A DNA stretch of 64,000 bases from Alcanivoracaceae bacterium (GTDB lineage Bacteria; Pseudomonadota; Gammaproteobacteria; Pseudomonadales; Alcanivoracaceae). Location of the stretch: positions 1-64,000 of the forward strand of contig JARGOL010000017.1 in NCBI GenBank assembly GCA_029212745.1, given 5' to 3'. Of the stretch, positions 40,716 through 42,924 are shown one piece after another (positions within the stretch are counted from its first letter, which is position 1; the number at the start of each line of letters is the position of its first letter). Below the pieces are notes generated by a model. The model saw only the letters and a program-made list of their open reading frames with translations, searched no databases and had not been told where the DNA came from. The position numbers and the translations under genes were made by a program.

Positions 40716-40744
40716 CTGGAAATGTCCCGTTTGAGCCCTATAAT
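40716..40744 (+). promoter_or_regulatory. Probable dksA promoter
   Basis: A perfect TATAAT (40739-40744) has CTGGAA 17 bases upstream, a weak -35 match. The start site near 40751 would give a leader of about 135 bases before the dksA ATG; no riboswitch or attenuator structure is evident in it. Confidence 0.5.
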
Positions 40745-40887
40745 GCGCCCGGTTTTACAAGGGTGACAAAAGCCCGCAGATGGGGGTATTGTCAGTGGCT
40801 TGAATTCGGTCGGGCGATGACCGACGCCGTGGGAACCGGCGCTCACATTACCAGCGAGCAGCGAGTATGTTAAGGGAGTTACTGAAA

Positions 40888-42027
40888 ATGGCCACCAGTA
40901 AAAAGAAGAAAACGGCAGCCAAAAAAGCCCCGGCCAAAAAGAAGGCCGCAGCAAAGAAAGCCGCCGCGAAAAAAGCCACTCCCGCCAAGAAAAAGACCGC
41001 CGCGAAGAAAGCCGTAACCAAGAAGAAGGTTGCTGCCAGGAAAACCGTGGCGAAAAAGAAAGTGGCTGCCAAAAAGGCTGCCGTAAAGAAAAAGGCAGCG
41101 AAGAAAGTGGCCGCAAAGAAAGCCGTCAAGAAAAAAGCAGCACCGAAAAAAGTAGCGGCGAAGAAAAAGGCCGTCGCGAAAAAGAAGGTGGCCGCCAAGA
41201 AGGCCGTTGCCAAAAAGCCGGCTGCCAAAAAGCCGGCTGCCAAGAAGGTAGCGGCGAAGAAGACAGCGGCCAAGAAGAAGGCAGCAACCACCGCAACGAA
41301 AAAGACCAGCGCCAGCAAGAGCGTGGCCAGGAAGAAGGCCGTCAGCAAGAAAACCGTAGCGCCCGCCAAGGCCACGGCCAGCAAGACAGCCTCCAAGGCA
41401 ACCAAGGCGCCCGCATCAAAGGCGCCGGCCAAGCAGAGTTCAGTGAAGAAATCCGCCAGCAAGAAAGCACCCGTCGCCGCGCGCAGCAAGTTGCCGGCGA
41501 AGAAGGCGGCTGCCAAACCGGCAAGAGCCAGTGCGGGGAAAAAGCAGTCCCCTGTACAGGTACCACAGCGCGTGAAAAAACCCGTTTCAAAACTTCCTGC
41601 CGCCAAGCCCGGCAGCTCCATCCATGGCTTCGAACCCTACAATCCGGACAAGGGCGAGGAGTACATGAGCGAGCGGCAACGTGAGCACTTCCGCAAGATC
41701 CTGCTGGCCTGGCGCCAGGAGCTGATGGAAGAAGCCGACCGCACCATGCATCACCTGCAGGACGAGCAGGCCAACCTGCCTGATCCCGCTGACCGCGCCA
41801 CCCAGGAAGAAGAGTTCGCCCTGGAGCTGCGCACCCGCGACCGCGAACGCAAGCTGCTCAAGAAGATCGAGAAGGCCCTGGACCAGGTGGACAAGGACGA
41901 GTACGGCTTCTGCGATGCCTGTGGCATCGAGATCGGCATCCGTCGCCTGGAAGCCCGCCCCACCGCCGAGCTTTGCATCGACTGCAAGGAACTGGCGGAG
42001 ATCAAGGAAAAGCAGCTGGCCGGCTGA
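40888..42027 (+). CDS. dksA: RNA polymerase-binding factor DksA with a long Lys/Ala-rich histone H1-like N-terminal extension
   Basis: DksA binds the RNA polymerase secondary channel and, with ppGpp, represses rRNA and activates amino-acid promoters. The C-terminal 135-140 residues are a complete DksA: GFEPYNPDKGEEYM, the coiled-coil tip LPDPADRATQEEEF with its two acidic residues, and the zinc finger CDAC...CIDC. Before it come about 235 residues built of AAKKK-, VAKKK- and KKPAAK-like units, resembling AlgP or histone H1 tails. No start codon allows a separate DksA with an intact conserved N-terminus, so the fusion is real if the sequence is. The ATG at 40888 has GGGAG 9 bases upstream. gluQ follows, as in relatives. 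Confidence 0.95.
   Translation: MATSKKKKTAAKKAPAKKKAAAKKAAAKKATPAKKKTAAKKAVTKKKVAARKTVAKKKVAAKKAAVKKKAAKKVAAKKAVKKKAAPKKVAAKKKAVAKKKVAAKKAVAKKPAAKKPAAKKVAAKKTAAKKKAATTATKKTSASKSVARKKAVSKKTVAPAKATASKTASKATKAPASKAPAKQSSVKKSASKKAPVAARSKLPAKKAAAKPARASAGKKQSPVQVPQRVKKPVSKLPAAKPGSSIHGFEPYNPDKGEEYMSERQREHFRKILLAWRQELMEEADRTMHHLQDEQANLPDPADRATQEEEFALELRTRDRERKLLKKIEKALDQVDKDEYGFCDACGIEIGIRRLEARPTAELCIDCKELAEIKEKQLAG
40894..41580 (+). repeat. Low-complexity tract encoding degenerate Lys/Ala repeats
   Basis: About 690 bases of imperfect tandem units of 9 to 15 bases built on GCC-AAG-AAG-like triplets. They encode AAKK, VAKKK and KKPAAK repeats, with the second half enriched in Ser, Thr and Pro (for example TASKTASKATKAPASKAP). 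The repeats make the tract prone to slippage and to assembly collapse, so its length may vary between strains. The opposite strand is openly hydrophobic (Phe/Ala/Leu-rich), an artefact of the repeat. Confidence 0.85.
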
Positions 42028-42066: not shown

Positions 42067-42924
42067 ATGCCCGCACACGCCTCTGCCGTTTACCGCGGCC
42101 GGTTCGCCCCGACACCGTCAGGCCCGCTGCACCTCGGATCACTGACCACCGCCGTGGCCAGCTGGCTGGACGCGCGCCAGCATGGCGGCCAATGGTTGCT
42201 GCGCATCGATGACCTGGACCCGCCACGGGAAGTACCCGGCGCCGCTGACACCATCCGCCAGCAGCTGGAACAGTGTGGCCTGCACTGGGACGGCCCGGTG
42301 ATTTACCAGAGCCAGCGCCAGATGTACTACACCGACGCCGTGGAGCAGTTGCTGCGCCAGGGCGATGCGTTTCGTTGCGCCCTGTCGCGCAAGGACCTGG
42401 CGGCCTACCCGGATGGACACCCCGGCCCGTCTGTCGCCGTCACTGACAACGAAGACACCGCCGTACGGCTGGCCGTGCCAGACGAGCAACGCCAGCTTGT
42501 CGACGCCTGCGCCGGCGCCTGGCCCTACAACCTGCAACGCCTGGGCGGAGCCTTCGTGATCCGCCGCCGCGACGGGCTGTTTGCCTACCAGCTGGCCTGC
42601 GCCGTGGACGACGCCGCCTTTGCCATCACCCATGTCCTGCGCGGCGATGACCTGCTGCCATCAACGCCGCAGCAGTGCTACGTGCTTGAGCGGCTGGGCC
42701 TGCAGCCGCCGCACTATGCCCACATCCCGGTGATCCGTGACGCGGCCGGCGAAAAGCTGTCCAAGTCCGCGGGCAGCGCCCGCATTGATACGTCAGACCC
42801 CTGTGGGGAAGTGGCACGCGCCCTTGCCGGCCTGGCGCTGCCCCACGACCCACAGGCCCCGGTGGAAGAGCAGCTGGCCCGCGCCCTTTCGGCCTGGCAA
42901 AGCCCTTTCCGCCCCTCAGCCTGA
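42067..42924 (+). CDS. gluQ: Glutamyl-Q tRNA(Asp) synthetase
   Basis: Truncated GluRS paralogue that attaches glutamate to queuosine in tRNA(Asp). The 285-residue protein has RFAPTPSGPLHLGS (HIGH motif, residues 22-25) and GEKLSKSAG (KMSKS loop, near 232), and lacks the anticodon-binding domain of true GluRS. The zinc-binding cysteines seen in E. coli are not all present: the region reads FRCALSRKDL with a single Cys, so the zinc site looks lost. It lies 39 bases after dksA, the usual partner in gammaproteobacteria. Confidence 0.94.
   Translation: MPAHASAVYRGRFAPTPSGPLHLGSLTTAVASWLDARQHGGQWLLRIDDLDPPREVPGAADTIRQQLEQCGLHWDGPVIYQSQRQMYYTDAVEQLLRQGDAFRCALSRKDLAAYPDGHPGPSVAVTDNEDTAVRLAVPDEQRQLVDACAGAWPYNLQRLGGAFVIRRRDGLFAYQLACAVDDAAFAITHVLRGDDLLPSTPQQCYVLERLGLQPPHYAHIPVIRDAAGEKLSKSAGSARIDTSDPCGEVARALAGLALPHDPQAPVEEQLARALSAWQSPFRPSA

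Follow-up and report, generated by a model that had tools for sequence, protein, structure and literature searches.

Knowledge of DksA comes largely from the short protein of Escherichia coli. Compared with that protein (1TJL, 151 aa), the DksA described here shares the whole body, including the DxxDxA tip and the C4 zinc finger, and differs at the N terminus, where the aligned part is preceded by 16 residues in E. coli DksA and by about 243 Lys/Ala-rich ones in the present protein. The nearest counterpart in print is the DksA of Xanthomonas euvesicatoria, which is likewise N-terminally extended: it comprises 256 aa rather than 147, its start being most likely an upstream GTG, and the long form is backed by peptides and start-codon mutants, with a processed variant also present on immunoblots (PMC5559785). 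The Xanthomonas extension is about 109 aa long; the available text of that report frames it as an annotation correction and does not state its composition (PMC5559785). Members of the TraR/DksA family that are "even longer than DksA" and of unknown function have also been mentioned; in the accessible portion of that source these are C4 zinc-finger TraR homologues in general, and a lysine-rich tail is not named (PMC9239242). For VHML Orf8, a TraR homologue, the same source suggests that an N-terminal extension lowers activity. No description of a lysine-rich or H1-like tail on DksA itself was found in the open-licence PMC literature searched, and other papers may describe one.

Comparable tails are known from other proteins. 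AlgP/AlgR3 and PhaF of Pseudomonas carry long, disordered, H1-like Lys/Ala/Pro tails tied to DNA and granules, and AlgP, with its KPAA repeats, is located on polyphosphate granules (PMC9239181). In these proteins the KPAA tail is C-terminal and follows a helical/phasin domain, whereas here the tail is N-terminal and DksA is the sole folded part; by Pfam and AlphaFold2 the 379-aa protein does not show the AlgP/PhaF domain order. H1-like lysine repeats also occur on DNA- or RNA polymerase-binding proteins of Streptomyces, namely TopA, where they raise processivity, HrdB, Ku and HupS (PMC7398561). Residues 49-135 of the tail gave weak phmmer matches to three HrdB/SigA chains (5e-4 to 8e-4), but the Streptomyces repeats belong to other proteins of another phylum, so that this is a compositional likeness that does not imply homology. 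Lys/Ala-rich repeats with a PF07382 match above cut-off are likewise shared with chlamydial Hc2 and other HC2 proteins; those are stand-alone nucleoid proteins, while the models NF038052 and NF038053 are not reached here. An HC2 protein has been found on PHB granules (PMC3783465), and lysine-rich disordered regions of E. coli proteins bind polyphosphate (PMC12345225). In a transcriptome of A. dieselolei, one TraR/DksA-family gene, of ambiguous copy, falls at 10 MPa (PMC4810429).

Gene locus and domain composition

All coordinates refer to the window, i.e., the whole 64,000-nt stretch analysed (JARGOL010000017.1, forward strand). Positions 40888-42027 on the plus strand translate as a single open frame of 379 aa with no internal stop. 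The preliminary description had read this as an uninterrupted frame in which an H1-like Lys/Ala tract is fused to a complete DksA, and profile searches bear this out; its figure of 235 residues for the extension was roughly right, 243 being closer (Table 1).

Table 1. Coordinates of the tailed dksA gene, its upstream signals and its downstream neighbour in the window
Feature	Position	Strand	Basis
Sigma70-like promoter match, TGGAAA-16-TATAAT	40717..40744	+	10/12 consensus positions; consensus match only
AGCGAG upstream of ATG 40867, a weak ribosome-binding-like motif	40853..40858	+	
Leader codons MLRELLK, possible true start at ATG 40867	40867..40887	+	Conserved
Shine-Dalgarno AAGGGAG for ATG 40888	40872..40878	+	34/34 unique leaders; -7.9 kcal/mol with 16S 3' end
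H1-like tail rich in Lys and Ala (residues 1-243), predicted to be disordered	40888..41616	+	Composition, HC2, AlphaFold2, dN/dS
DksA body, residues 244-379, and stop	41617..42027	+	TIGR02420, Pfam, 1TJL alignment
gluQRS, downstream neighbour	42067..42924	+	NF004314, 320.9 bits vs cut-off 256

Against E. coli DksA (1TJL), residues 244-379 match positions 16-151 at 2.1e-59, and the alignment covers 17-151. The body passes the TIGR02420 equivalog (167.9 bits against a cut-off of 115.5) and falls under the cut-off of NF008045 (PRK10778; 218.6 against 289 bits, model positions 16-151 of 151); since NF008045 is a second, narrower DksA model, the body is filed as DksA by TIGR02420. Pfam matches comprise DksA_N and the C4 zinc finger (PF01258, 39.2 against 24.9 bits), and the four-cysteine zinc site is present (C342, C345, C363, C366). 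L323, K326, R357 and K367 align with E. coli L95, K98, R129 and K139, which we take to be the ppGpp site 2 residues. The DxxDxA of the coiled-coil tip is found at D299, D302 and A304 in the 1TJL alignment, presumably corresponding to D71, D74 and A76 of the E. coli tip; DxxDxA is named as the coiled-coil tip motif in PMC9239242. D299, D302, A304 and C342 are invariant across the 14-row alignment used for AlphaFold2, which placed helices in the body at 262-295, 301-336 and 364-378. Judged by these residues, the body is a complete canonical DksA and presumably an otherwise normal secondary-channel/ppGpp factor.

A genome-wide profile search of the window's own genome returned only one match above the DksA family cut-off, together with two weak relatives of less than 50 bits each; the gene is therefore the single canonical dksA of its genome. 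Its neighbourhood looks ordinary: sfsA and a PLP aminotransferase gene precede it on the opposite strand, and 3' of gluQRS lie a histidine kinase and an NtrC-like regulator, whose scores both stay under the thresholds of the named models, followed by pcnB. On the minus strand, a 257-aa ORF at 40848-41621 mirrors the lysine codons and would give an F/A/L-rich translation; it is probably not a gene, and mis-annotation is possible.

The tail, cut at 244 aa, contains 85 K, 75 A, 21 V, 18 S, 16 P, 15 T and 5 R and lacks D and E altogether, and its DNA contains degenerate 15-base tandem units. Pfam HC2 (PF07382) matches residues 5-134 slightly above cut-off (44.7 against 40 bits), and the curated NCBI models of stand-alone H1-like proteins are not reached (NF038053, 44.4 against 80 bits; NF038052, 23.9 against 135 bits). 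Because HC2 is barely over its cut-off and the stricter NCBI models stay under theirs, "H1-like" is used here for composition, not descent. The only HC2 match in the genome is the dksA gene itself; across the order, HC2 matches are scattered, with 46 of 135 genomes at E<=0.001 and 14 of 135 over the cut-off, a pattern that gives no clear sign of a swap between a free-standing AlgP-like protein and the fused tail. Up to residue 240, AlphaFold2 assigned no secondary structure, and the pLDDT of the ten-residue blocks was 40-51. The model comes from one run on the shallow alignment (mean pLDDT 54.8, pTM 0.31) and is informative only for the body helices and the missing structure of the tail.

Translation start and upstream signals

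Three promoter-like sites lie in the region, where shuffled sequences average 0.1. Among the starts tested, ATG 40888 has the best ribosome-binding site. Seven codons before it lies the in-frame ATG 40867, which is invariant in all 34 unique family leaders, and M[LI]RE[LF][LIVF][KRN] precedes MA in 44 of the 45 family DksA genes. Leader codon 6 is represented by nine different codons among the 34 unique leaders, every one of them NTN. The codon pattern of 40867-40887 thus looks more like coding sequence than spacer, so that the protein may begin MLRELLKMATSKKKK and comprise 386 aa, with translation starting at 40867 instead of 40888. AGNGAG is found at -14 to -9 of ATG 40867 in 30 of the 34 unique leaders; pairing of the 17 bases 5' of this ATG with the 16S 3' end reaches only -2.8 kcal/mol. 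In another family of the order, three genes of tailed DksA (L133, L135 and L136) carry a conserved in-frame peptide SKDSMLKAIK..FGR before MPAK that recalls the MLREL leader.

Two findings could have undone the fusion, namely a stop or frameshift between the repeats and DksA, or translation that begins only at the DksA body, and the sequence lends support to neither. A sequencing or frameshift artefact is ruled out by the frame being open in 43 other tailed genes of the family. An untranslated tail, with DksA starting inside the frame, is very improbable. The argument for it is ATG 41665, which has a strong Shine-Dalgarno-like stretch (-7.7 kcal/mol), but this codon lies within the DksA body, where it encodes the M of the conserved EYM motif. 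None of the eight ATG/GTG/TTG codons in frame at 41047-41572 offers a good ribosome site for an internal start between tail and body (best -4.3), and the tail codons evolve as coding sequence, as described below.

Evolution of the tail within the family

Canonical DksA was found in 45 of 46 family genomes, the window's included, the missing one being 64% complete, and 44 of these 45, again with the window's own, carry the tail. Relatives named with the same architecture are Alcanivorax, with Alcanivorax hongdengensis, A. profundi, A. nanhaiticus and DG881, isolates among them. In the 44 tailed genes the tail measures 190-321 residues, with 20-35% K, 25-39% A and at most six D/E. The single exception, in a 2.1 Mb genome (G031; L202, G031:C78:10000-14500), is a clean short DksA that has a start of its own and lacks the MLREL leader. 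Since this genome lacks the tail and tail-less DksA works in E. coli, the tail is dispensable in some lineages. Two family genomes have, in addition to a tailed canonical DksA, a DksA-like paralogue with a Lys/Ala tail of its own that starts MAVKRK and lacks two of the four zinc cysteines (L283, G034:C5:477813-479536; L284, G038:C1:21895-23618).

Tail identity, charge and dN/dS were computed on the 41 unique genes that match the strict leader pattern. The net charge of the tail ranges from +47 to +90 in these 41 unique proteins. At a body identity of 97-100%, median tail identity is 0.86 with 13.5 gapped positions; at 0.80-0.85 it is 0.56, near the value of 0.47 for shuffled tails. Tails of near-identical-body pairs differ by indels and substitutions with composition retained, and length drifts between relatives. 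The preliminary description had suggested that repeat number could tune ppGpp-dependent control; despite the drift in length, this is speculative. Constraint therefore seems to act on composition and charge more than on sequence.

For dN/dS, the body synonymous-difference limit kept 523 of 820 pairs, and the medians, where computable, are 0.19 for the tail and 0.09 for the body. In the 25 closest pairs (computable in 24) the tail gives 0.08-0.55 and the body 0-0.16. Protein-first alignments lower dN in distant pairs; independent of this effect is the gap-free pair L031/L029, with 22 silent and 14 other differences over 258 codons (dS 0.12, dN 0.025). Several of the closest pairs show, in raw numbers, at least as many amino-acid-changing as silent differences, and the argument rests on per-site rates. 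Because per-site amino-acid change in the closest pairs is 0.08-0.55 of the silent rate, the tail is translated and evolves as a constrained protein. It is stable through the family.

These data bear on whether the tail is a functionless repeat expansion that is merely tolerated at the N terminus. The 15-base tandem units and the fast indels are what such low-complexity drift would leave behind, but a tail dN/dS below 1, the near absence of D/E and the retention of the tail in 44 of 45 genomes, at body identities mostly of 0.8 to 1.0, speak against drift, which we regard as quite improbable.

Distribution across the class and possible roles of the tail

To survey the class, an even draw of 104 genomes was searched, and all matches at E<=1e-25 were taken; 91 genomes had DksA over the cut-off. 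Loci were read for 78 of the 91, and the other 13, with open frames of 112-179 aa, were counted as lacking a long tail because their frames are too short. A long Lys-rich extension of 96-303 residues is present on 23 of the 91 DksA genes, the window's included, and one of 40-99 residues on 13, two of which are weak (L248, Arg-rich with an ambiguous start, and L254, 40 aa with 12% K). The remaining 42 read loci have no or only a short extension; this group includes two borderline cases, L271, where a Lys-rich stretch is cut off by the end of the contig, and L240, where the long frame upstream is rich in A, P and R and does not pass the lysine rule. As a control, 1908 other frames, some of them overlapping copies of one locus, were put through the tail detector, which flagged 41 at >=40 aa and 30 at >=60. 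In the window's own order, most DksA rows among the matches listed have frames of <200 aa, and at least three further families have members with long tails: f18 (L133, L135, L136, L139), f4 (L140, L145) and f42 (L144). DksA/TraR-like proteins from Nitrospinae, Thermoanaerobaculia and Sedimentisphaerales MAGs (L108, L109 and L110) also show a Lys-rich stretch before the matched part; they were found with a tail-containing query, which favours tails, and give no frequency.

Extensions on DksA orthologues, which the preliminary description had proposed to map on a tree, are thus recurrent, and tailed and tail-less genes are intermixed on the DksA-body tree. The fusion is no one-off oddity, and its label as the "most unusual protein" proves too strong, the architecture being recurrent, and at the same time too modest, since DksA is a central regulator and this common form of it was not found described in the literature searched. 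The tree comprises 94 rows (78 from the class draw and 16 picked) and 135 columns and is weakly resolved, with four of 91 inner branches starred. Over these 94 rows, tail presence clusters no more than shuffled labels do: it requires 28 changes against a shuffle mean of 30.8, 97 of 500 shuffles being as low, and the starred branches force only three changes. Mapping of a single origin was considered and rejected, since this tree by itself demonstrates neither one origin with losses nor repeated gain. Repeated gain is argued for by the DksA-like paralogue of G034 and G038, which bears a separate Lys/Ala tail, and this points to repeated acquisition of the tail. Because tail presence is not clustered, the tails of different families need not share one function, and the same scatter is the third observation in favour of drift. 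GC content was considered and rejected as a driver; third-position GC of the body has a median of 0.52 in tailed (n=33) and 0.63 in untailed genes (n=42), which is not clearly different (Mann-Whitney p 0.08).

For the family studied here, we think it just about probable that the tail acts as a polycationic electrostatic tether, by which a DksA that is ordinary in other respects becomes concentrated at nucleic acid or polyphosphate. The disordered, strongly cationic N terminus would bind phosphate backbones without sequence specificity, whether those of nucleoid DNA, of nascent RNA or rRNA, or that of polyphosphate; DksA would thereby be kept concentrated near transcribing RNA polymerase and stay there longer, the body performing its usual job in the meantime. 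Indels and substitutions with composition kept are expected for a charge-based tether. Also in its favour are the intact body, the high charge and scarcity of D/E, the constrained evolution and predicted disorder of the tail, and the recurrence of such tails in the class and on the paralogue. The analogy with AlgP/PhaF and with Streptomyces TopA, HrdB, Ku and HupS makes the tether idea of the preliminary description reasonable; the ligand of the tail and its effect on transcription are inferred. Counting against a tether are the dispensability of the tail in some lineages, its unclustered distribution on the tree, the HC2 match, which rests on composition and is a weak sign of common descent, and the suggestion that the extension of VHML Orf8 lowers activity (PMC9239242).

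The full-length protein might instead be a precursor that is cut into ordinary DksA and a free H1-like peptide acting as a nucleoid protein. Lysine-rich tracts are, as a matter of general knowledge, easy targets for proteases. The preliminary description had proposed to look for proteolytic processing, and X. euvesicatoria offers a precedent in its N-terminally longer DksA (256 against 147 aa) with a processed variant on immunoblots, although that band may be plain degradation (PMC5559785). We consider a precursor possible, if fairly unlikely.

In a polyphosphate switch, the tail would mainly bind the polyphosphate of starved cells, parking DksA on granules or altering its activity. Binding of polyphosphate by Lys-rich disordered regions of E. 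coli proteins (PMC12345225) and the location of AlgP, with its KPAA repeats, on polyphosphate granules (PMC9239181) are consistent with this, and by the title of one cited paper E. coli polyphosphate accumulation is regulated by DksA, not ppGpp. Sequence, however, cannot separate polyphosphate, DNA and RNA binding of such tails, and as the main role of the tail the switch appears unlikely. Either precursor processing or a polyphosphate switch could coexist with the tether.

A broader and doubtful extension of the tether reading is that many gammaproteobacterial lineages use a tethered DksA. The tail would partition DksA between nucleoid, nascent RNA and polyphosphate, and polyphosphate made in starvation would compete for the tail and redistribute DksA, closing a loop between ppGpp/DksA and polyphosphate; gain of the tail would have occurred more than once, in one case on a DksA-like paralogue that shares its genome with a tailed DksA.

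On DksA, a central regulator, the H1-like tail is a common variation of which the open-licence literature searched gave no description. If a quarter (23 of 91, long tails) to two fifths (36 of 91, at least 40 residues) of the sampled gammaproteobacterial families carry such a tail, the localisation of DksA, its residence on RNA polymerase and its link to the chromosome or to polyphosphate may differ widely from the model.
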